Assembly: GCA_963281255.1 (NCBI GenBank)
Contig: OY725500.1
Coordinates: 3,529,184 to 3,593,183 of the forward strand
DNA length: 64,000 bases
From: Aphrocallistes beatrix
Lineage: Eukaryota; Porifera; Hexactinellida; Sceptrulophora; Aphrocallistidae
Direction: 5' to 3'
Shown in pieces: positions 3,874 to 45,648 of this stretch. The notes beneath the pieces are model-generated. The model searched no databases and had not been told where the DNA came from. It was given only the letters and a program-made list of their open reading frames with translations. Within the stretch, counting starts at the first letter, position 1, and every line of letters begins with the position of its first letter. The position numbers and the translations under genes are program-made.

Positions 3874-3927
3874 GGACGGTTTTGCATCAATATTAATTAA
3901 AATTATTAGAATTTTAGTCATTTTAAA

Positions 3928-6900
3928 ATGCCGAGAAAGAGAAGAGGGAAACATTCAGCAAAAAGCGAAGATAATACATCGGAAGAAAATGTGCTTAATT
4001 CTCAAGAAAAGCAAGTCATAAGAGAAAAGTACAATGCTGGGTATTCAACGACAGAAATTGCAGAACACTTGAAAATAGCTGAGAGCATCATTAAGGAACA
4101 TGTTGAGAGCACTTTTATAACGTTCAATGGGAAAGAAGGGAAGATGGTTTTGGAAACGATATACAAATTATTTGGGACTTATCCAATTGCTGAATTACGA
4201 AAAATGATTGCGACTAAGAATATTGAACTACAAAATAAAATTTGTTGTGAACTTCCAAAAATTGATAGAGAAGAGTTTAAGGCCCTCAAAAATTACTTCA
4301 TGAAATTCGAACAATCACAATTTTTTTTAGGGATCGATGAAACTTTGAGCATTGAAGAAAAGCAATGTATCAGATCAAGTAGTCTGGACGACATACAGGT
4401 TCTTAGTTTAAAACTGAATAAGATGGAGAAAGTTATCCGTGATTATCTACTACGGTATTCCCCAGACGGAGAAATTCTGCTTATTGATGAACAAGAACAG
4501 TTGAAACTGTTGCGAGAATTTGCTGCGGATTTTGCAATGGATACAAAAATATCCTACACGACATATAGAATGATCATTACACACTCTTTTAACAGTTTAA
4601 TTGAGAATGCAAAAACTTGTAGTAAGGAAGTAAATTCACTCAAAAAGATATTCAACGAACTTCTGGCTTTGGCATTCTACTACATCAAGTGCAGTTTACC
4701 ATTAGAGGACATAACAGAGATATTCAGGAAAATAACGAACATATCGCTATCTACACTCGATTTATTCCATTTAATTTTTCAAATGTCAGATCCCGTAGTC
4801 CGAGGTCTCTGCATAGAACATTATTCATTCAGCAATCCAGTCCCATTCTATTACCCAATACTCGGACTCTATCCTCCAGAACAAACATCTAGCCAATTTG
4901 AAATCTGTAAAGAACTCTGGTACTCTTTACAACAGTTCAGTGGTTTAGTTTCATTTGGGTTAGGATGGGCTTCTTGGAATCCTATTGGGAAATCTCATCT
5001 TTTGGATTTGATGTTTGACACAGATTTTGAGAAAGGAAGTCCTCAAAACAGTCCATTTCATTTAAGTTCAATTGATATACAGATGACAAAAAATGTATTT
5101 GGAAAGAAAGGAAGTACTGGGGAATCTACACAATGGGCATATATAGATTGTCACAGATGCTCAGATATTCATGTCATAAAAGACATTTGTCAGAACTTGG
5201 ATATTGCATTAATTCATGTTAGCTATTCTGACTATAGAGAGAACTACTCTCGATTGATGGAAGACCTAAATACAATCACAGTCAACACTGGACATGTCTA
5301 TGTATTGGTTCGAGATTGTACAGAAAATGAACTATATAGAGAACAGGTCGCAATGAGTGGCAAAACTTTTATTTTTATTCCGAATCTCATTAAAATGATC
5401 TCAGGATTTAAAGAAATTGGATACATGATCTTACATTCGCCGATCGTAGATCCGAGATTGGTTGGAAGCCATTTCCTTGAAAATGTTATCACTCGAAATG
5501 ACAGTTGGGCTAATTTAAAGGTAGAAAAAAACTTGATCGAAAGTATCATGAATTGTAATAACACAAACATTCAAAGTACAGTTAGCCTAGGTTTTTCACA
5601 CCTTAGTTATTATCCACATTTTGTGAAGTACATGAGTTGTTTCTATGAAGCTTCTAGCCAAGAAGACCCAAATATTATCAATGAATTGAACAGAAAATGC
5701 GAGCAACTCGCTAACCATTTTGAAAATGCTGAAATGAATGCGATCGTTTGGTGCTTCAATGAAATTTTAACCATGGATAATTCGACACTCATTTTGTGGA
5801 AATTGTCACAAGAACTCAACATTCTCTCGAAACGACTAAGCCACGCAAGTAACGAATCGCTCCTCTCTCTAGAAATTCTCTGGAGAGAAGCTTTGCTTTC
5901 GAATAAATATAATCCCAGCCTAGATGAAGGTACACCAGAGAGTAAATATTTCGAAACATTTTCTTCGAACTTCAGTAAGCATGTGGAGAGAGGAGAACCT
6001 TTCGAGCTGATTGATGGTGATAACCTCAGGTTCTTTAACCAAGATATTAACGTTCTTCTGTCCAAATTCTATGAAAAGCAAAATATTGATTCACATAATA
6101 CAGCTAGAATGACTAGAGTAACGCCAATAGTAGTGAGCATATTTGGACCTCAGAGTTCTGGGAAGTCTACGCTACTGAATTACTGTTTCGGTTGTAAGTT
6201 CTTGACTAGTGCTGGCAGGTGTACTAAAGGAATATATGCATCTCTTTCAAAGCTCAGTCAACCAATCAATAATTCTGATCATTTCCTCATTCTCGACACA
6301 GAAGGACTAGATGCTTCTGAGAAAGTCAAATCACAGAACACTTCAGGAATACACTTTGACAGGACGATGGTGCTGTTTTGTTTAGCCGTGTCACAAGTCA
6401 CTATCATTAATATTAAAGGGGATTTTGGGAAAGAAATGCAGAATCTTTTACAAATATGTGCTTACTCTCTGAACAAGTTAAAAGTGAGTAAGGTAGCAGC
6501 TCCAAAAATATTCTTCGTTCTCAATCAACAAGCAGATCCAGATCCTGACAAACATCTGAATTCGATCAATACTCTTTTAGACAAACTGAATGAAGAGTCG
6601 TACCTTATGGATACCGACGGTTTGAAAATTTCTGATTTAATTAATGTCTCAAAGGAAAATCTATTCGTCCTTCCTTCTGCTTTTAACTCTAAATCATTGA
6701 ATACTCAGATAACCAAACTATTCGATTCAGATTTGTGCAAATTATCTCCAACAATAAGTTTCGCAAATAGATGTGCTGATTTACGGATGTCCATCATCCA
6801 TCAACTGAAAAATAATGTGTCTGATAGCAAAACTTCCTTTAACACAATGAGTGAATGGATGGAAATGTCTGGTGTTATTTGGGACACTATTGTCAAATAC

Positions 6901-7974
6901 CAAGACATAGTAAAATACAGAAATACTGACGAACTAAAATGTAGTAATGCACTTGACAAAATTTTGAGTGATATATTGCAAAATAAAATCCATTTAAATA
7001 CAGAAAAATATCAAGAAATTACAAAAAAAACGATTTCAACAATAAAGAAGATTACCAAGTTGAGTCCTCCAAAAGACATACTGGAAGATGTGGAGAGAGA
7101 ATTGTACGATGTATTCAAAGAAGATAAAGAAAATGCCTTGACAGAGTTTGCAATACAATGCCAAGCTAATGCCTTGCTTAAGAAAATGGATTACATGTGC
7201 GATGAAGCTGAATCAAACTTGAGAAGACTTATCTACATGGAAAATAAAATTTATAGCGATAAACTCAATTTAGCACTCACAGCTAGGTTAACTGATTTGT
7301 GGGTAAAAGAGTGTAAGCTGAATTTACAGCGAACAATTGAGGAGAATGGTGATAAGTATTTAGATTTCAGTATTGAGGAACAAATAGGAGAATTTGAAAA
7401 ACTCTGGATCGATTGCTTCAGTGATGGCGCAAAGGAAGAAAAAATCGAGTATGGCAAGAAATTTGACGAGTTGTATTCCCTGTTTAGGATGGAATCAAAA
7501 ACAATGGAAAATAAACAAACGATTTATGCTTTATTTTGTGATTCTAACTTCGACATGGACATCATAATTCAGGACCTTAGCAAATGCATGTTTCAAAGAT
7601 TTTGCGACAAGAGTGATCAATTCGCAGGAACTGATCATTTCATCTACCCTTGGAGAGAGAACAGAGTTCCCTTAAAGGAAATGACACCTTACATTGGGAA
7701 ACAAAGGTGTGAATATCTATCTGAAGATTCTTTGTATTTCATTACAGTTAATCAGCATCAGCATGTTGTTCAAGTCACTAAACCTAATATCAAGTTTAGT
7801 AAATGGGTTCCATCAGACTGTTATCCACTGATAAGATATTGTTCCGGTTTCTACAATCATCCTGATATTATTTGGAGAATTGAGAAGAGAAAGCAAATAC
7901 TATTCCTCGCTTCTCAACTAAAAGATCCTAATAATCATAATAAAAGCACCTGGGATAAATTTATTACGACATAG
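3928..7974 (+). CDS. VLIG-like giant GTPase copy 1, N-terminal and GTPase part
   Basis: This belongs to the very large inducible GTPase (GVIN/URGCP) group of cytosolic or nuclear dynamin-superfamily GTPases. The ATG at 3928 follows a possible 3' splice site (TTTTAG), and the protein starts with a basic MPRKRRGKH stretch. Residues 31-60 resemble a helix-turn-helix (GYSTTEIAEHLKIAESI). A helical region follows, then a degenerate P-loop NPIGKSH (351-357). The main GTPase has G1 GPQSSGKST (740-748), switch region GRCTKG, G3 DTEGL (790) and the family's NQQADPD in the G4 area (866). Long helices follow. The frame ends at TAG 7972-7974 because one base is missing near 7967: copy 2 reads ATCACTGAC where this copy reads ATTACGAC. 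The rest of the protein continues in the next frame. This is either a recent lesion or a sequence error. Confidence 0.85.
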   Translation: MPRKRRGKHSAKSEDNTSEENVLNSQEKQVIREKYNAGYSTTEIAEHLKIAESIIKEHVESTFITFNGKEGKMVLETIYKLFGTYPIAELRKMIATKNIELQNKICCELPKIDREEFKALKNYFMKFEQSQFFLGIDETLSIEEKQCIRSSSLDDIQVLSLKLNKMEKVIRDYLLRYSPDGEILLIDEQEQLKLLREFAADFAMDTKISYTTYRMIITHSFNSLIENAKTCSKEVNSLKKIFNELLALAFYYIKCSLPLEDITEIFRKITNISLSTLDLFHLIFQMSDPVVRGLCIEHYSFSNPVPFYYPILGLYPPEQTSSQFEICKELWYSLQQFSGLVSFGLGWASWNPIGKSHLLDLMFDTDFEKGSPQNSPFHLSSIDIQMTKNVFGKKGSTGESTQWAYIDCHRCSDIHVIKDICQNLDIALIHVSYSDYRENYSRLMEDLNTITVNTGHVYVLVRDCTENELYREQVAMSGKTFIFIPNLIKMISGFKEIGYMILHSPIVDPRLVGSHFLENVITRNDSWANLKVEKNLIESIMNCNNTNIQSTVSLGFSHLSYYPHFVKYMSCFYEASSQEDPNIINELNRKCEQLANHFENAEMNAIVWCFNEILTMDNSTLILWKLSQELNILSKRLSHASNESLLSLEILWREALLSNKYNPSLDEGTPESKYFETFSSNFSKHVERGEPFELIDGDNLRFFNQDINVLLSKFYEKQNIDSHNTARMTRVTPIVVSIFGPQSSGKSTLLNYCFGCKFLTSAGRCTKGIYASLSKLSQPINNSDHFLILDTEGLDASEKVKSQNTSGIHFDRTMVLFCLAVSQVTIINIKGDFGKEMQNLLQICAYSLNKLKVSKVAAPKIFFVLNQQADPDPDKHLNSINTLLDKLNEESYLMDTDGLKISDLINVSKENLFVLPSAFNSKSLNTQITKLFDSDLCKLSPTISFANRCADLRMSIIHQLKNNVSDSKTSFNTMSEWMEMSGVIWDTIVKYQDIVKYRNTDELKCSNALDKILSDILQNKIHLNTEKYQEITKKTISTIKKITKLSPPKDILEDVERELYDVFKEDKENALTEFAIQCQANALLKKMDYMCDEAESNLRRLIYMENKIYSDKLNLALTARLTDLWVKECKLNLQRTIEENGDKYLDFSIEEQIGEFEKLWIDCFSDGAKEEKIEYGKKFDELYSLFRMESKTMENKQTIYALFCDSNFDMDIIIQDLSKCMFQRFCDKSDQFAGTDHFIYPWRENRVPLKEMTPYIGKQRCEYLSEDSLYFITVNQHQHVVQVTKPNIKFSKWVPSDCYPLIRYCSGFYNHPDIIWRIEKRKQILFLASQLKDPNNHNKSTWDKFITT

Positions 7975-22838: not shown

Positions 22839-23507
22839 ATGCCTAAAAAAAAGAAGCAATCAAAGAAAGGTAAAAATAATTCATCGAAATTAGATATAGT
22901 ACCTAGTTTTGAAGAGAAGGAGGGCATAAAAGAAAAATATAACGCCGGGTACTCAATACCAGAAATCGCAAAACAATTGAAAATATCTGAAAATGTCATA
23001 ACAGAATACGTTGAAAGTATTTTTATAACATTCAAGGGGGAAGAAGGCGAGATGATTTTAGGAATTATACACAAAATATTTGGAAATTGTCCAATTGTTA
23101 AACTGCAAGAAATGATTGCAACTAAAAATGTTAAATTACAAAAGGAAATTTGTTGTGAGTTGCCAAGTATTGATGGAGACGAATTTAAAGCTCTCAAAGA
23201 ATATTTCATGAAGTTCGAACAGTCACAAGATTTCTTTGAAATCAATGAGACATTAAGTATCGAAGAAAGGACATGCATCAGAACCAGCAGTCTCGACAAC
23301 ATACAAGAACTTAGTCTAAAACTGAATATAATGGAGAGAACGATCAAAGATTATCTGCTAAGGTATTCTCCAGATAAGGAATTCTTGTTCCTCGATCAAC
23401 AAGAACAATTAAAACTATTGCAAAGATATGCTGCAGAATTTGAAATGGGTAAGAAAATATCCTACACTACATACAGAATGATCATTTCAACACTTTTGAT
23501 GACTTAA
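22839..23507 (+). pseudogene. VLIG-like giant GTPase copy 2, segment 1
   Basis: Start of the paralogue of the 3928-10,229 gene. The ATG follows TTTTCAG, a likely 5' UTR splice acceptor. The MPKKKKQSKK basic start and the HTH-like GYSIPEIAKQLKISEN (residues 39-54) are conserved. A one-base loss near 23,488, in ACACTTTTG, shifts the frame and the segment ends at TAA 23,505-23,507. Including all segments this copy has three lesions against one in copy 1, so it is probably a pseudogene, though homopolymer indels could be sequence errors. Confidence 0.75.
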
Positions 23508-26323
23508 TACAAAATGCAAATACTTGTAGTGAAAAAGGCAAGTCACTCAGGAAGATATTCAATGAACTTCTTGCTCTGGCACTCTATTACATTAAATGCA
23601 GCTTACCATTAGATGAACTGACAGAAGTAATGGCCAATATAGCTAACATATCACTAACTACACTGGACATATTTCATCTAATTTTTCAAATGTCAGATCC
23701 CGTAGTCAGAGGTCTCTGCATAGAACATTATTCATTCAGCAATCCAGTCCCATTCTACTACCCAATACTCGGACTCTATCCTCCAGAACAAACATCTAGC
23801 CAATTTGAAATCTGTAAAGAACTCTGGTACTCTTTACAACAGTTCAGTGGTTTAGTTTCATTTGGGTTAGGATGGGCTTCTTGGAATCCTATTGGGAAAT
23901 CTCATCTACTAGACTTAATGTTTAAAACCGATTTTTTAAGTCCTCAAAGCAGTCCATTCCATTTAAGTTCTATCGACATTCAGATGACTAAAAATCTTTT
24001 CGGGAAGAAACACAAAGATACTCCGGAATCTACACAATGGGCATATATAGATTGCCACAGATGCTCAGATATTCATGTCATAAAGGACATTTGTCAGAAC
24101 TTGGATATTGCATTAATTCATGTTAGTTATTCTGACTATAGAGAGAACTACTCTCGATTGATGGAAGACCTAAATACAATCACAGTCAACACTGGCCATG
24201 TCTATGTATTGGTTCGAGATTGTACAGAAAATGTTCTAGAGAGAGAAAAAGTCGCAATGAGTGGCAAAACGATTACTTTTATTTTTATTCCGAATCTGAT
24301 CAAGCCTAACATAAAAACTGTTTCAGGTCTCAAAAAAATCGGATACACGATCTTGCATTCACCAACTCCAATTCCGAGATTAGTTGGAAACAATTTTCTA
24401 GAGAATATAATCACTCAAAATAACAGTTGGGCCAATTTAGTGGAAGAGAAACAGATTATTGATTGTATTAAGAGTCATTGTTCAAATATCAAGGATAGTA
24501 AAATGGAATTCTCCTTCCTAAGTCACTATCCACATTTTGTCAATTACATGGATTGTTTTTATGAAGCTTCTACTCAAATAAACCAGAAGGCCATTGATGA
24601 ATTCAATAGAAAATGTGAACAACTCGCAAGCCATCTTGAAAATGCTGAAATGAATGCAATTGTTTGGCACTTCAATGAAATTCTAGCCCGGAAAAATTCA
24701 ACTCTCATTTTGTGGAAATTATCTCAAGAATTGAAGATACTAGAGAGAGAGCTCCCTGTAAGTAATAAGACCCCTTTCACTTTAGAAATTCTTTGGAGAG
24801 AAGCGTTATTGTCTAGCAAATATAATGTTACCATCGACAAAGGTGAACTAGCCAATAAATATATTAACAAATTTTCATCAAATTTTAGCAACCATGTGAA
24901 AAGAGGAGAACCATTCGAGTTAATTGATGGTGATAACCTTAGGTTCTATAACCAAGATATAAACGTTCTCTTGTCTAAATTCTATGAACAGGAAGATGAT
25001 CAAAAAGCTACAATCATCGAGAATAAAAGACCACCAATAGTAGTGAGCATATTTGGACCTCAGAGTTCTGGGAAGTCTACGCTACTGAATTACTGTTTCG
25101 GTTGTAAGTTCTTAACTAGTGCTGGCAGGTGTACTAAAGGAATCTATGCATCCCTTTCAAAGCTCAGTCAACCAATCAATGACACTGATCATTTCCTCAT
25201 TCTCGATACAGAAGGACTAGATGCAACGGAAAAAGCGAAGACTCAGAAAACTTCAGGTATACACTTTGACAGGACAATGGTTTTGTTTTGCTTAGCCGTG
25301 TCACAAGTAGTAATCATTAATGTGAAAGGAGATCTCGGAGAAAAAATGCAGAATCGTTTACAAATATGTGCTTACTCTCTCAACAAATTGAAGGTGAGTA
25401 AGGTACCAACTCCCCAAATATTCTTCGTTCTCAATCAACAAGCAGATCCAGATCCAGACAAACATCTGAATTCGATCACTATTCTTTTGGAGAAACTGAA
25501 TGAACAGTCTTATCTGATGGAAACGGAAGGATTGAAAATTTTAGATTTAATACAAGTATCAAAAGAAAATTTGTTTGTCCTTCCCTCAGCATTCAACTCA
25601 GAATCTGTGAATACTCAGATGACTAAGCTTTTTGACTCGAATTTATGTAAGTTATTCCCAACTATAGATTTCGCAAATAGATGTGCCAATCTGCGAATGT
25701 CCATCATTCTCCAACTGAAAGATTATACTTTTGATAGGAAAACACCATTTAACACAATGAGTGAATGGATGGAAATGTCTGGTGTTATTTGGGATACTAT
25801 CATCAAATACCAAGACATAGTAAAATACAGAAACACCGAAGAACTAAAGTGTAGCAACGAACTTAACAAAATGTTAAGTGACATTATTAAAAATATGATC
25901 CATTCTAACAAAGAAAGATATCTAAAGATTACAAAAAACTCTATCGTTACAATAAAGAAGATAACGAAGTCGAGTCCTCCAAAAGAATTACTAAAAGATG
26001 CGAAAATAGAGCTGTACGATGTATTCAAAGAAGATAACGAAAAGGCCTTAACTGACTTTACAGCACAATGCCAAGCTAATCCACTGCTCAAGAGAATGGA
26101 TTATTTGTGTGATGAGGCAGAGTCTAACTTGAACAGACTTATCTACATGGAGAAAAAGGTTTATAGAGACCAACTGAATCTAGCAATTAAAGCTAGGCTG
26201 ATCGAGATAAAACTAACAGAGTACATGGAAGAGTTTCAACTAATTATCGAGAAGAATTGTGATAAATACTTGGAGTTAAGCATTGAGGAACAAAAGGAAG
26301 AATTTGGAGAACTCTGGGTCTAA
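23490..26323 (+). pseudogene. VLIG-like giant GTPase copy 2, GTPase segment
   Basis: Resumes the alignment with copy 1 after the first frameshift; the first in-frame ATG is at 23,630. It holds the degenerate NPIGKSH loop and the full GTPase motif set: GPQSSGKST at about 25,055, DTEGLDA and NQQADPD. Blocks of 150-230 bp are 98-99% identical in DNA to copy 1, while adjacent sequence is far more diverged. It ends at TAA 26,321-26,323, where copy 1 has GAT in the same frame, so this is a nonsense substitution. Confidence 0.75.
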
Positions 26324-34862: not shown

Positions 34863-35048
34863 GCATACATGCAAACTTGAGCCATGATAAAAGCGGGACG
34901 CAGCGTTGAATTTCGCAGGACATGGCGGGACGCAATAGAAAAGTATATACAAGAATCAAAAAAAGCGGGACATTCGTGAAAATTAACTCAAATAGAAGAG
35001 TGAAAAATCAGGATGTCCCGCCAAAAACGGGACAATTGACAAGTATGC
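34863..35048. mobile_element. GCGGGAC-type MITE, copy 2
   Basis: The terminal repeats are GCATACATGC and GCAAGTATGC-like reverse ends. Internal GCGGGAC/GTCCCGC motifs recur. GAA flanks both sides, a possible 3-bp duplication. Confidence 0.75.
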
Positions 35049-37439: not shown

Positions 37440-37754
37440 CCGCACATTTTGATCAAAAACAAATGTAGAATTTTGATCAAATTTCTCAAGTAGAACTTTG
37501 ATCAAAATAGTTAACTTGATAAAAACGACGTTTTTGATCAAAGTACTACATTTATCAATATGTGTAGAACTTTGATCAAACTATGTAGAATTTTGATCAA
37601 ATCTGGAAATGCCACTTTTGATCAAAGTTCTACAGTAAGAGGTGATGTAGAACTTTGATCAAATCTGGAAACGCCACTTTTGATCAAAGTTCTACAGTAA
37701 GAGGTGATGTAGAACTTTGATCAAATCTGGAAATGTCACTTTTGATCAAAGTTC
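37440..37754. repeat. Array of TTTGATCAAA palindromes
   Basis: About 310 bp in which GTAGAACTTTGATCAAA and its inverse recur. The last three units form an exact ~62-bp tandem repeat (with CAGTAAGAGGTGAT). The array resumes at 44,731-44,790 on the other side of the Ginger element, so it was the insertion target. Confidence 0.85.
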
Positions 37755-37961
37755 TGTTGCATGAGATTTTGACCCGCGTGGGATTTTGACCCACCGATAG
37801 CTTTTTCATTTTAGACTAAGTAACATTTCGTCCATGGTAACTTGCTATTTACTATATAATTACCTTCATGTCATAAACTCGCGTTCTAACTTTATCTCTT
37901 TTTTCTAGATTTCTTTCAACTTCTATTTACGAATTTACTTCGAACTGACATTGACTCTATC

Positions 37962-40900
37962 ATGAACGTGAACGAGTACCAGCAGATTCAGAGTTATCTC
38001 TTGACTAATGTCATTCCTCTGGAGATCAAGGATTCAAGTGATCGATATAAGAAAAAGAATTTTGTCAGAAGGTGCAGAGAGTATTATCTCCAAAACAACA
38101 AACTTGTAAAGGTTCAAACTAGCTTTTACCTCACCTTTGCTATTATTGAATCTTGGGCACCAATATTTAGCTTAAATGTTTTTCAATTTGACTGTCTGTG
38201 GTGGTGGTTTATTTTACTAATAATCCAAATCGTATGTATCCATTCATTTTACTGTCCATATTTCAGAGTGTGAGGAAGAATGGAGTCGTGAAATACCTTG
38301 AGATTCCACTTGAATCCGAAATCAATCATATCATCAGTTTCTACCATGACACTACTCACCCTGGTATCAATGCTACCATTGATGGCATTCGTAACAAATA
38401 CGACTGGATCGGCATTCACGAAGATGTTCGACAATATGTAAGAAATTCCCATTCAATGAATTAGAATGAATAAAATTATTCACTTATTTTATCCTTTTAG
38501 ATAAAAACCTGTCACGACTGCCAATCTAATGCAGCACTCCCACCTCAGCCCCAACGAGAACTCCAACCCATTCCACCTCCACAAAACCCCTGGCATCACT
38601 GTGGAATTGATCTAGTTTGCAATATGACCCCAGATTCTTTCGGATTTCAGCATATTTGGTTATTGTCTGCTACCTGAGCAAATTTGCAGTCGCACGCCCT
38701 CTCAAAACTAAAACATCCAGGGAGGTATTGAATCGCTTACAAGATATCTATCTTACATTCGGAGTTCCTAAAGTTATCCAGAGCGACCAAGGCAAAGAAT
38801 TCTCGAGCAAGGTATAAACATATATATAAAGTACACCCGCTGATACTTACTATACATATATAGTTAATTTACTAGTTAATTGTATCATATTTAAAGAATA
38901 AACAAGAAAATACACCCCTCTTTACTATCTTAATTAAGTACGTCTGGTATACATTGACATTATTTGATATTCACCAGCTTCAACGTAGTGGAAACTCTAA
39001 ATTAGCTAAATTAGCTGTGTACTCCATTTTTTTTAAGCTAACGTCCCAATTAAGCCATTGAATAAATGTGAAAGTATCAGGTGGCATACTTAGGAATATT
39101 TTGATTGTTTTAGGAATTTCAAGATTTCCACTCACAACTTGATGTTGAGCTTAGAAGAACCACTGCTTACCATCCACAAAGTAATGGACTTGTTGAAGCG
39201 CACAATAAAATTATCAAAAAGTAAGAGTCTTATTTATCTATCTCACCCCATATTATTGGTTACTCTCTATTTTTTTAATTAACTTTGAATTAGTAAAATT
39301 TACAAATTGAGGAGTAATGCAGATACAGAATGGACAGCAAAACTACAACCAGCAGTTTTGTCAGCAAACACTCAGAAAAAACGCTCTACAGGGTACACTC
39401 CATTCTATCTTATGTTCGGGAGAGATTATGATTCCTCTAACCTTCTCAACTTGATTACCTCATCATCAAATAACGACGACCGTTCTGAGCCAAATGAAGA
39501 CGGTTGTACCTCTGATCCAGGATGCCCCCAACACTTGATGCCATTCCAATGGCCATTGACGAAGCAGATCCCTATGAGTTACCAAATAATGATGATGAGT
39601 GGATGCAAGAAATAGATGAAACTCGTGATACTGATAGAATGTTTGCTATCGACAATATCAAAAAAGAACAGAAGATTCAAAAACGGAATTTTGACCGTAA
39701 ACTAAAACGTAACAGGTGAGTAATTCTTATTTTTAGTGTTTGGTTCCAATAACAGAAAGTAATGACAATGATGATAGCATCACCATAGCATATTTTCTCA
39801 AAGAAGCTTTGCAATTCGTATGTCTTCTCATCTCATACTTAAAATATTTTCTGTTGACGTAAATTCAATTCATCATGACTCAAAAATCTTTACTTAACTA
39901 AGTAGCTAAATTTAGGTCGGAATTTGAGGAAGGAGACCAAGTACTTGTACACAACATCAAAAAATCCAAACATCTTCCTGGAACCAAAAATGCAAAGAAA
40001 TATCTTGGACCATATTCAGTAGATAGAGTGACACCAAGCCATATTATTGCACATACCGATCTCAACAGCAAAAAGACAACAAAGATACCAATCCACCTTT
40101 CTCGAATATATCATAAACGCACTAATTCTGCAGTAAGTGAAATTTTAGTAATTTTTAATTAAAATGCTATCAATTCCTACAAATTTGATAGTTTTATTTT
40201 AGGATACGGAGACATCAGTAAACAAAGCAATACTCGAGCCATCCATCAATTCTATTCGTGAGTAATATTAGTATCGATAAGTTATTTACTTGTCTGAAGT
40301 TAAATTGGCTATATTCTTAGAATCCTATGACGATATGGATTCCTTAACTTTGGGAGCGACAGAAGAGACATTTGACAGCCAAGAACAGCTACTATCTGAG
40401 ACAGAAAAAGAAATACTAGACAACAAATTTAACGACATCAAACCTCAAGTATTATCATCACTTCTCAACAACACCTGCTTAACAGATCTTCACGAAACCC
40501 TTGCCACTAAAGCTAAATCACTAACATCACTCACTACACTATATGATCTCCACCCATCAACTACCATCAATTACATAACTAAGGAATACATTGGCATCAC
40601 TGTCACTCGATGGTATAATGAATATCGTAATTCCCATCCCAGCGAAAGTCAACTCGAGAAAAGAAGGGATTACGATTACCCTCTCGCAGTTCTATTCCCT
40701 GTAGTGATTGAGTTGATCTTCCCGAAAGAATCAGAAATTATTACCATCGAATCAACACCATCATCACCATCTGAAAACCTCGCTAGCGCTACTGAAGACT
40801 CATTACAATCTATAACATTCCCTAAATGGGAGGGCGAATACAACAACGTCCTACAACTTAACACCTGCCCAGTCGACAACATAGTGGCAATTCTAAGTTT

Positions 40901-41615
40901 AAATCAGGACAAAATCATTAATTCACTGAAAATAATCGGAACAACACCATCAACCTGCAAATTCCATCAAATCTATTCTCTTGTCGCCAGTAAGAAATTT
41001 GATGAACTGCGAGAGTACATTGCTTCACATATTGGGCTAAAAATTATCTACCAGTCGCTGGTTAAATGTTATGACTTTTTCGGATCAGAGGGTAATATCA
41101 TTAAATTTCTACGTACCTTGGACCTATGCAATGATCGCTACATCTCCACATTTAAATGCCACCAATGCTCAAACACCTTCAACATCACCTGTATGCTAGG
41201 TACCATAGGGAGCGTCATCACCAACTTAGAGTCTTCAGTTAGTCGCAAACTCCTCCCAAGTAAATGCAAATCTTGTGGGTCAACTAATTCCATCTTCGAA
41301 AGACAATCTGGCCAATTCAAATCAATTCCTACTCTTCTTACAATTGAAATCGGACATCTCCCTAACATCGACAAGCAACTTGCAATATCATATATCGACA
41401 AACATTTTACCATCGGCCATGACCATCAAACGCTGCACTATCAACTAGTCGGCTTCTCCATCTTACTCCGAAATCACTTCTATTCTATTCTGTACGACAA
41501 CGAAAAATTCTATAGATATGACGGGATGAGGACACCAACAACTGAGGCATGGGACTGTGACAACTTCCCTGGGACACTCAATACTGTATTCTACCTCTTG
41601 CACTCTTCTGACTAA
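37962..41615 (+). CDS. Ginger integrase fused to a USP-like cysteine peptidase (8 exons)
   Basis: Proposed exons: 37,962-38,105; 38,267-38,437; 38,501-38,811; 39,114-39,220; 39,294-39,715; 39,916-40,132; 40,203-40,257; 40,321-41,615. All junctions are GT-AG and the phases agree. Exons 2-3 encode the H2C2 zinc domain ending CHDC. The integrase has D (GID, 38,609), D (SDQGKEF, 38,785) and E (NGLVEAHN, 39,195). Splicing puts exactly 35 residues between the last two. A GPY-type domain (KKYLGPYSV) is in exon 6. Exon 8 adds ~430 residues like a ubiquitin-specific protease: Cys box NTCPVDN (Cys 40,866), two CxxC pairs (CHQC 41,157; CKSC 41,265), His in RNHFYSIL (41,475) and Asp in YRYDGM (41,520). 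Single-base frameshifts at ~38,650 and in the C-run near 39,522 break the integrase; the peptidase exon is intact. Confidence 0.75.
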
Positions 41616-41896
41616 TTCTTTTTCTTCATCCGAAAGCGCTCAAAGGCAAGGTACGTCGAACCTTGTTGGGACCTCTGCTCGAGGTTATTCAGGCAACGCA
41701 ATCTCTATCGTGGTGAGCCCAGATAAGAACACGTGACCTGCAACAGCAAATCCCAAGTGGCGGAACAAAGTAACACTTCACCACCAGAAATCCATCTCAA
41801 GTGTATTGCGGGAGAGGCAACGCAACTGACGAGTCCAAGCCGGGGCGAAACACAAAAATTGGAACAGAATAGCAAGTGAGTTTTATATAATACGTA

Positions 41897-41948
<52 letters not shown>

Positions 41949-42901
41949 TTATATACTTATTATTTAATTGCCTGAGTAAGTTGTTTAATTAGTTTGAGGC
42001 TTATGTCTGGTGTCAACGGTGGGTATCTAATTGTTATTCTACGTCATATATGCTGTCATAATCCGAATTAAAATGTACTCTGTACAAAGTTTTGACTGAC
42101 TAAAGTGATTAATTCAGCTTAGATTAACTCCTTATTTACCCATACATAGCGAGATTATCTTGGATGCATATTTGGGATAATATAGTCGACTCGGCTCTCG
42201 TCAGTACGAACACAGATAAGGCTTAACCTGGATAGATACTTAGTACACTTTAAAATTATCTCTATACCGTAGTGCACATAAAGCGTACTAACGAGGGTCG
42301 ACAGTAATTGAATAACAATTACGTAGATACCAATCGTTATATTGAGACGCTCGCAATTGATCGAATGATTGGGTTGACCGATTAAGGGCGAATAATCTGC
42401 AAAACTGGATTAAGGAAGTGAATAACAAGTTAGATATACCTGTTCCTTAAAAATGCCTCAACCGGCTAGTTTTTAAAATATTCGATACTAAAAACCCTAA
42501 ATTTACTTTGGCTCCTAATAACCATGCCCAATGCCCCTAGCAAACTCATATTCTTTATTTCACAAAATAAACACCATTCTTCCTCGCAATCCGAAATCAG
42601 TTGATCAATTCTCAAGTCAATTCAATTTCTACTGTCAATTGCAAACCTACCGAATTCGATCAATTGCAAGCCCTCGTTATGTTGTCTGTGATTTTGACTC
42701 GACTACATACTTCGGTTCACTCGACTATCTTAAATTGGATGGTCATACATTTGACTGTCATAAATTCGGCTATCGTACTTTCGACTGCCGGCATACGACT
42801 GTCACACATTAAAAAAACGGTACCCTCGATTGACGGAACACTCAATCGACAGTATACTCGATTAGCGATACATTCGAAAACAATGCGACCATTGACACAT
42901 C
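41616..42901. other. Noncoding interior of the Ginger element
   Basis: Begins with ~260 bp of relatively GC-rich sequence ending in a donor-like GCAAGTGAGT (about 41,873). A (TA)n tract lies at 41,900-41,947. Around 42,600-42,880 short GACTGTCA/TCGACTAT-like phrases repeat. No further domain was recognised. Confidence 0.5.
41900..41947. repeat. (TA)n microsatellite
   Basis: Uninterrupted alternating TA of about 24 units. Confidence 0.9.
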
Positions 42902-43119
42902 GCATGCATGCCAACCTGAGTCATGATAAAAGCGGGACGCAGCGTTGAATTTCGCGGGACATGGCGGGACGCAATAGAAAAGTATTAGACACAGAATCCA
43001 ACAAAACGGGACATAATGGGGAGATTTCATGTAAAAACGGGACACGTATCAAAATTAGCTCAGGAGAAGAGTGAAAAAGCGGGACGTCCCGCAAACAACG
43101 GGACAGTTGGCATGTATGC
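42902..43119. mobile_element. GCGGGAC-type MITE, copy 3, inside Ginger
   Basis: The ends GCATGCATGCCAAC and, in reverse, GCATACATGCCAAC are the best-preserved termini of the family. The interior carries GCGGGAC/GTCCCGC repeats. ATTGACA occurs on both flanks and may be the target duplication. Confidence 0.8.
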
Positions 43120-43420
43120 TATTGACATGTCTGAAGAGAGCGAATGTCTGTGAGTAGGGATGCCAATCCTGCCCAGTTAATGATACGCGGACGAAAGTTT
43201 TCTGATAATTTCCAATCAAATGGTGTTAAAACTGGTACATCTTTGATTTTATGGAAATAAACTTTGGAAATAAACTTTTTATGGAAATAAACTTTTATAT
43301 AAGGCTCCCCCATTTTTTATTGATTGGATCGGCATCCCAACTTTATGGGTGGGAAAGGGAAATCTTACTTCTAATATCAAGTCACTAGTATTGCATTCAC
43401 ATCGATCTGTTGTAAACCAA

Positions 43421-43640
43421 TTCTACCTGGAGAGGAACGGGATGGCTATTAGGGGAGGTGGAGGCCATCACAGCTAAACACTAGAACGTATTGAATTAAC
43501 ATCGCTCTGCAATTCTACCTGGAGAGGAACGGGATGGCTATTAGGGGAGGTGGAGGCCATCACAGCTAAACAACTAGTCGCTAGTACTACGTCCACACAT
43601 CGCTCTGTTTATACCTACACTACCTGGAGAGGAACATGAT
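43421..43640. repeat. Short tandem array, three units
   Basis: CTACCTGGAGAGGAACGGG begins three units spaced 92 and ~108 bp. The first two share about 57 identical bases; the third is cut short. Confidence 0.8.
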
Positions 43641-44008
43641 GCACACAGACTCATAGTCTAGTTATATATTTATGTATGATTTATAATTGATTGCTATTAA
43701 TGGAGTATATCAGGAAATTTTATTACATATAATAATGATTCCTCGCTTCATTATAACATTGTAGATAATTAATGAGCTAGAAACATGATAACGCAAATGA
43801 GTTACTTAATTAAGATAATACTTATAAATGCTTCCAGTCCATGACCCCTAATTGCACCGTTGCTTTCCAGCGACAATCATTGTTCAGGTTAGAAAGTATG
43901 AATACAGCCCCAAAAATTACGGCCACTCTAGTCTTGGTGCCAATGTTTAGAAATTTTAAACCCCTAAAAGATTGGAGATAGAAGAATGCATAGTAAATAT
44001 GCACATGT

Positions 44009-44716
44009 CCGTGGTGCGGGTCAAAATCCCACGGCTAATTATATGTATTATAGATTATAATGTTGTAATTTAGAGTGGGTCACAATTCCACGGCTAATAT
44101 TCTACAATGTTATTTAGAGTGGATCACAATTCCACGGCTAATATTCTACAATGTTATTTAGAGTGGGTCACAATTCCACGGCTAATATTCTACAATGTTA
44201 TTTAGAGTGGGTCACAATCCCATGGCTAATATTCTACAATGTTATTTGGTGCGGGTCAAAATCCCATGGCTAATATTCTACAATGTTATTTGGTGCGGGT
44301 AAAAATCCCACGGCTAATATTCTACAATGTTATTTGGTGCGGGTCAAAATCCCACGGCTAATATTCTACAATGTTATTTGGTGCGGGTCAAAATCCCATG
44401 GCTAATATTCTACAATGTTATTTGGTGCGGGTCAAAATCCCACGGCTAATATTCTACAATGTTATTTGGTGGGGGTCAAAATCCCACGGCTAATATTCTA
44501 CAATGTTATTTGGTGCGGGTCAAAATCCCATGGCTAATATTCTACAATGTTATTTGGTGCGGGTCAAAATCCCATGGCTAATATTCTACAATGTTATTTG
44601 GTGCGGGTCAAAATCCCATGGCTAATATTCTACAATGTTATTTGGTGCGGGTCAAAATCCCACGGCTAATATTCTACAATGTTATTTGGTGCGGGTCAAA
44701 ATCCCACGCGGGTCAA
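44009..44716. repeat. 44-bp subterminal tandem array of the Ginger element
   Basis: About 15 units containing GGTGCGGGTCAAAATCCCA and GGCTAATATTCTACAATG. The unit includes the GGGTCAAAATCCCA motif of the terminal inverted repeat, so the array is an expansion of transposon-end sequence. Units differ mainly as CCCACGGC versus CCCATGGC. Confidence 0.95.
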
Positions 44717-44790
44717 AATCCCATGAAACAGTTCTACAGTAAGAGGTGATGTAGAACTCTGATCAAATCTGGAAATACCACATTTTGATT

Positions 44791-45020
44791 CTCTATCATA
44801 AGTGTCAATATCAAACATAATGATGTTAAATTACAAACGAAAATTAATAACAATAGTGAGTGTTGTTTTCACACATTGACATATGGATTCATTCCCATAA
44901 CTTTAGGCTCCATTCATCAATATAAGTAAACATAGGTCATTTGAAAAAGAAAATCTCAATTAATAATCTTCTAGAATTTATGCCTTGTTAGTTAAGATAC
45001 ATAAGTAAGTTATTGATGTA
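44791..45020. other. Short spacer
   Basis: AT-rich; nothing recognised. Confidence 0.35.
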
Positions 45021-45648
45021 ATGGAGTACCAGATCATTGAAGGAAAAAAGTTAGAGTTTAAGAATTTTAGAAGTAATGATTTCTTGTACAATCGCTCCTC
45101 TTCAAATGAACATTGTACATATTTGAGGTGTACTTTATGGAGAACCAGAGGAATAGAGTGTCCTGGATTTGGGAAGATTATCCATGAAACAAATCTCTTT
45201 CATATAAATAAAGACCACTGTCATACAATAGAAGCTTATAAATCTGAAATAATCATCTTAAACAATAAGATTAAACGTGCTGCTGAAATCTCAACCGAAA
45301 ACCCCCGACAAGTTTTCGATAATGCCACAAGCGGAGATCAAGCAGGAGCCTTAATATCGTATCGGAATGTACGCAACACTATGCTCAAAAGAAGAAGGAT
45401 AGAGGTTCCCAGACTATCCAAAAACGCCGGAAGAATTTGAAAGAATGTTGATGCAAACTCGGTTTGCAAAGAACTTTCGAACTATGGTTATTGTCTCGGA
45501 AGGTTTTGCAGCAATTTTTTCCACCGACTTAATGCTTTCGGCTCTACAGGACGCCAATTACATAAATTTCGACGGAACTTTCTATGTAGTTCCGAAACTA
45601 TTTTACCAATTATTCACTATCTTTATTCAGAGAATTGAGTTCTTTTAA
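45021..45648 (+). pseudogene. MULE-type transposase N-terminus with FLYWCH-like zinc finger
   Basis: The first frame (45,021-45,440) has a FLYWCH-like Cys2-His2 layout: CTYLRCTLW, RGIECPG, then HINKDHCH. The segment RNVRNTMLKRRR that usually follows it in Mutator-like proteins comes next. The second frame (45,445-45,648) has FSTDLMLSALQDANYINFDG and VVPKLFYQLFTIF, the first part of a MULE catalytic domain with its first Asp. A frameshift near 45,430 separates them and everything after 45,650 is missing. It is a dead fragment. Confidence 0.7.

Follow-up and report, generated by a model that had tools for sequence, protein, structure and literature searches.

Elements of the Ginger1 group combine an H2C2 zinc finger, a Gypsy-type DDE core and a GPY/F motif with terminal inverted repeats (TIRs) and a 4-bp target site duplication (TSD) (Bao, Kapitonov and Jurka, 2010, PMC2836005). 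In the sections of that work drawn upon here, the TIRs span 40-270 bp, the termini follow TGTNR, the TSD is CCGG or CCGT, and the transposases, coded by genes with 0-4 introns, have an OTU or Ulp1 cysteine protease at their C-terminus (PMC2836005). The authors proposed that the ubiquitin pathway plays a role in transposition, and the same sections mention a Trichomonas protein, XP_001314237.1, in which Transposase_11 (pfam01609) is combined with Peptidase C19 (PMC2836005). Ginger1 with OTU or Ulp1, and a Trichomonas transposase with C19, are already published; what is new in the present case is a domain that, read from its sequence, is USP-like and sits on a Ginger-type integrase. Among the open-access full-text matches listed, none described by its title or the opening of its abstract a USP-like domain on a Ginger integrase.

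The case comes from Aphrocallistes beatrix, in a window (the whole 64,000-nucleotide stretch of DNA that was analysed) belonging to a genome that was searched over 100.5 Mb in 28 contigs. The original prediction placed a transposon gene at 37962-41615. These coordinates are those of the gene alone, and the whole transposon is a 6,976-bp element on the plus strand (37755-44730), lodged in a 62-bp tandem array that resumes directly to its right (a copy of repeat D4 stands at 44751; this reading is partly by eye). Its inverted ends, TGTTGCATGAGATTTTGACCC and TGTTTCATGGGATTTTGACCC, are 38 bp long, the left one at 37755-37792 on the plus strand and the right one at 44693-44730 on the minus strand, and the inverted pair matches at 95%, one flanking base being included in the pair. 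On either side stands the strandless duplication GTTC (37751-37754 and 44731-44734). Six copies of the element were examined. Both ends were in view in four of them, all four with a 4-bp TSD: GTTC in the window, GGCC in sister copies C13 and C9, and GTCC in C1. The left end of C14 lies beyond the fetched stretch, its exon 1 starting about 40 bases from the edge, and C19, with no exact match at its right end, was not counted among the copies with both ends. Inverted ends with 4-bp duplications mark a DNA transposon, and since target sites differ among copies, the element has moved. A subterminal array of 44-bp tandem repeats precedes the right end (44020-44692, plus strand), with 14 exact cores in the window copy, 3-14 in the five copies holding it, and none in C19. 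An 84-bp repeat, 94% identical, occurs once outside the transposon (34863-34946) and once inside it (42902-42985), so that a nested repeat may be present in its 3' half. Just to the right of the element, the frame at 45009-45440 gives the impression, and only that, of the zinc-finger start of another transposase.

A Gypsy-type H2C2 finger and DDE integrase, together with TIRs and a TSD within the 4-5 bp of the Ginger superfamily, are all found here, and the GPY motif that follows the core (LGPYSV in exon 6, read by eye as is LGPYNV in the relative L038 described below) would make Ginger1 the closest group within that superfamily. As far as the consulted sections of the Ginger1 account allow the comparison, the likeness covers the H2C2 finger, the DDE core, GPY/F, TIRs, the 4-bp TSD and even the addition, at the C-terminus, of a domain of cysteine-protease type from the ubiquitin/SUMO field, which appears here to be USP-like. 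The differences, within the same limits of the source, are that this domain is neither the OTU nor the Ulp1 of Ginger1, and that the TSDs are GTTC, GGCC and GTCC instead of CCGG or CCGT. The left end of the window element, TGTTG, fits TGTNR whereas the right end, TGTTT, does not, and compared with the 40-270 bp of Ginger1 the TIRs measure 38 bp in the window element and about 330 bp in L038 and its second copy, L039. Ginger2, described in part as lacking GPY/F and as using an AT-rich RTATAY target, differs from the present elements, where GPY is present and the TSDs contain GC. Compared by description, the Trichomonas protein is alike in carrying a C19-type domain on a DNA transposase (a C19 hydrolase there, a USP-like domain here), while the type of transposase (pfam01609 there) and the host differ.

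The gene, wholly on the plus strand, was predicted to consist of eight exons. Its start at 37962, its stop at 41615 and GT-AG borders at all seven introns are in place, but the window copy is not open from end to end, a broken state that the original prediction had overlooked. Exon 1 (37962-38111) is followed by exon 2 (38267-38437), where the H2C2 finger starts, and by exon 3 (38501-38811), in which H2C2 ends and the integrase's core residues D144 and D203 lie. Exon 4 (39114-39220) brings E239 of the DD35E triad; then come exon 5 (39294-39715), exon 6 (39916-40132), with the GPY motif at about 40007-40015, exon 7 (40203-40257), and exon 8 (40321-41615), coding for a conserved linker and the USP-like domain. 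Pfam recognizes both integrase domains (H2C2, E 1.5e-15; rve, E 2.8e-11). Two lesions, 1 bp deleted from exon 3 (near 38655) and 2 bp inserted into exon 5 (near 39531), are private to the window copy, both being absent from all five sister copies, and the first stop of the frameshifted reading falls at codon 166. To judge from these lesions, the full protein is no longer made from this copy. Two of the five sister copies, C13 and C9, keep the eight-exon model open throughout, with 908 aa; other breaks interrupt C14 and C1, while C19 (80% identical) is decayed. Identity to the window copy over the element lies at 96.7-98.8% for C13, C9, C14 and C1. The predicted spacing of 35 residues between D203 and E239, counted in the open copies C13 and C9, is correct, and it can also be read in the window copy because the exon 3 break sits upstream of D203.

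That the domain of exon 8 is joined to a Ginger-type integrase, as had been claimed, is strongly supported by the open models of C13 and C9 and, independently of any splicing, by locus L038 on contig C3. There, one uninterrupted frame, 911 codons long between its stops, comprises the integrase (Pfam H2C2 2.3e-13, rve 1.4e-12, with the GPY motif), a linker and the same C-terminal domain, 31% identical to that of the window, so that the fusion is provable without a splicing model. The element to which it belongs is 4,257 bp long, with inverted ends of its own and the flanking TSD GTTC. L039, on contig C1, is 99.5% identical to it over 3.5 kb; its frame is interrupted, and its flanks have only TTT in common. 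Searched against the same genome, the exon-8 product had 106 matches at E <= 0.001, with 26-100% identity. At the 46 loci taken from these matches (L007-L052, of which L024 and L025 overlap and 30 were seen with a flank of only 1.5 kb), integrase sequence adjoins the domain at 43, the exceptions being L013, L048 and L050; this count starts from loci bearing the domain and not from the 104 integrase matches. Such an association indicates that the domain belongs to the transposon. It extends to a third lineage, L037 and its relatives, where a cysteine-rich stretch separates integrase and domain, and where the rve (6.3e-05) and PHD/RING-like (0.0037) matches are both below the Pfam cut-off. In L037 (4079-6517, minus strand), as in L040, L041, L044 and L049, a CXC-like cysteine cluster was noticed by eye ahead of the USP-like domain. 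With the A1 family alignment, L038 and L026 as queries, no relative was confirmed in viral contigs. The frameshifted state of the window copy might have suggested that exon 8 is a separate gene lying downstream of an unrelated integrase remnant; the 908-aa open model of C13 and C9, the 911-codon frame and the joint presence at 43 of 46 loci make this hardly credible, and on the strength of L038 we reject exon 8 as an independent gene.

The domain itself covers about 265 residues (40815-41612, plus strand). Every feature that had been predicted in exon 8 is there: the box NTCPVDN, both CxxC pairs, and a His with an Asp 15 residues further on. The putative catalytic codons are those of Cys (40866-40868), His (41475) and Asp (41520), and the codons of the candidate zinc cysteines start at 41157, 41166, 41265 and 41274. 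Eleven aligned rows, 27-49% identical to the window domain, have in common a W, a G, NTC..D, the two CxxC pairs and HF; Y.Y[DN] is nearly always present, and L036 is without one zinc Cys. Taken with the 106 matches in the genome, such conservation exceeds what chance would give. A set of 17 rows, made up of nine lineages and near-identical copies, was chosen for open frames. Every one of these rows has Cys182 and His385, 16 have all four zinc cysteines, and at the third site, position 400, 12 have Asp and five have Asn. Beyond these rows, Ser occupies the position of the catalytic Cys in L040 and L049, and L044 and L050 each lack one zinc Cys. Nine pairs taken between lineages gave a dN of 0.26-0.72, with synonymous change saturated in eight and, for the ninth, equal to 2.4 with a ratio of 0.2; so low a dN against saturated synonymous change implies that selection held back the protein sequence. 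Among near-identical copies, seven pairs allowed a ratio, which lies between 0.36 and 1.07 and reflects few changes.

Is this domain a peptidase of the ubiquitin-specific protease type, as was predicted? The match holds in part. USPs (PF00443, C19; nine host genes were used) present in order Cys, CxxC, CxxC, His, Asp/Asn and a C-terminal strand, and so does the domain; the two CxxC pairs, inserted between the Cys and His boxes, exist in six of the nine host proteins. USPs allow a D/N exchange at the third catalytic site, the very exchange found here. With hhalign, the CxxC pairs, His and Asp fall in register with the nine host USPs (E 0.0013-0.0016, probability 16-18%), and a stretched whole-domain alignment brings the last C-terminal strand into the USP register too. 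An E of 0.0013 was reached by none of 300 column shuffles, not by the single reversal and by one of 291 block shuffles, so that 591 of 592 controls were beaten (row L036 was left out of this comparison, as of the HMMER one). The N-terminal parts, aligned alone and without a shuffle control, place NTC on NTC in the Cys boxes at E 0.0095. Other results weigh against it. The domain stays below Pfam detection, no relative came up in PDB by phmmer and profile searches, and a HMMER profile of host USPs gave its aligned domains about 4 bits at most, the same as a shuffled sequence. Two USP motifs are without counterpart in the A1 alignment: the box QQDxxEF, and an Asn, which we take to be the oxyanion residue, lying five positions ahead of the Cys. 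The residues concerned, Q90, D92, E95 and N5, are invariant in the host USPs. The Cys boxes fail to coincide when the domain alignment is stretched or global, and a longer hhalign alignment that takes in the linker matches the His box alone (E 0.0035, probability 9%). The hhalign probability of 16-18% for the domain itself is also low. We speak for these reasons of a USP-like domain rather than of a USP. Single-sequence AlphaFold models, one for the exon-8 product and one for the isolated domain, were unusable, with a mean pLDDT of 33 and 35.

The same features bear on what else the domain could be. A cysteine peptidase of papain-like fold, forming a transposon-borne family separate from USPs and owing the USP catalytic order and zinc ribbon to deep ancestry or to convergence, would account for the two missing motifs, for the silence of Pfam and PDB, for HMMER scores on a par with shuffles and for Cys boxes out of line over the whole domain; its target might perhaps be SUMO or another ubiquitin-like tag. 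This we regard as unlikely, if to be taken seriously, because hhalign sets the CxxC pairs, the His and the Asp (and, when stretched, the C-terminal strand) in the USP register and because the third site alternates between Asp and Asn. It is distinctly less probable that we are dealing with a zinc-ribbon module devoid of enzymatic activity, binding DNA or protein for example, with a coincidental Cys/His/Asp pattern. The best weak Pfam match, PF13695 (0.00035 for L016, below the cut-off), and the Ser of L040 and L049 would fit such a module; the Cys and His present in 17 of 17 rows, albeit rows selected for open frames, would not, nor would the location of the conserved residues within the motifs NTCxxDN and HF..YxY[DN]. 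As for other peptidases, Pfam reported no match to UCH or to any other family. Ulp1 and OTU were rejected as identities, Pfam giving no OTU or C48 match; the Cys-His-Asp order of the domain also differs from that of Ulp1, which is His-Asp-Cys.

The explanation that we favour, and hold to be probable, is that of a Ginger1-like cut-and-paste transposon with a single-gene transposase built of H2C2, DD35E, GPY, a linker and, at its C-terminus, what would be a divergent USP-like cysteine isopeptidase. In such an element the integrase would bind the inverted ends and the subterminal repeats and move the DNA, while the C-terminal domain would remove in cis a ubiquitin or ubiquitin-like tag carried either by the transposase complex or by chromatin or repair proteins in its vicinity. 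The complex, once relieved of its tag, might last long enough to finish integration, transposition being in this way prolonged or licensed. A shared need for an activity of this kind is plausible given that Ginger1 transposases end in OTU or Ulp1, as reported in the sections cited above. Whether, beside OTU and Ulp1, a third type of ubiquitin-field peptidase, USP-like but divergent enough to escape Pfam, was captured at the C-terminus of Ginger-type integrases and then kept under selection while lineages split is a more tentative proposition, to which we give slightly less than an even chance. If it is true, and such peptidases were taken up at this one position again and again, then in animals DNA transposition of the integrase type would depend on removing ubiquitin-like tags in cis. 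With an isopeptidase-like domain as the third to occupy this position, conserved across several lineages of one genome, the ubiquitin proposal would become a testable rule, and the 4.3-kb relative with its one uninterrupted frame offers a simple test system. The domain may also represent a new peptidase family.

Several other observations were made along the way. OTU domains are very numerous in this genome (149 matches). At one of the two OTU matches that were inspected, L072 (1-3701), the OTU domain ends a 938-codon frame resembling, on reading, a different transposase. A stretch of 37 kb on contig C17 (G000:C17:3630818-3668145) holds 15 matches to the UCH domain, gene pieces being counted apart, as if host deubiquitinases had expanded there in tandem. 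Within the window, long frames with URGCP-like GTPase domains lie at 3910-7974 and 23453-26323 (E 4e-33 and 6e-29), and NHL matches also appear among the window frames.
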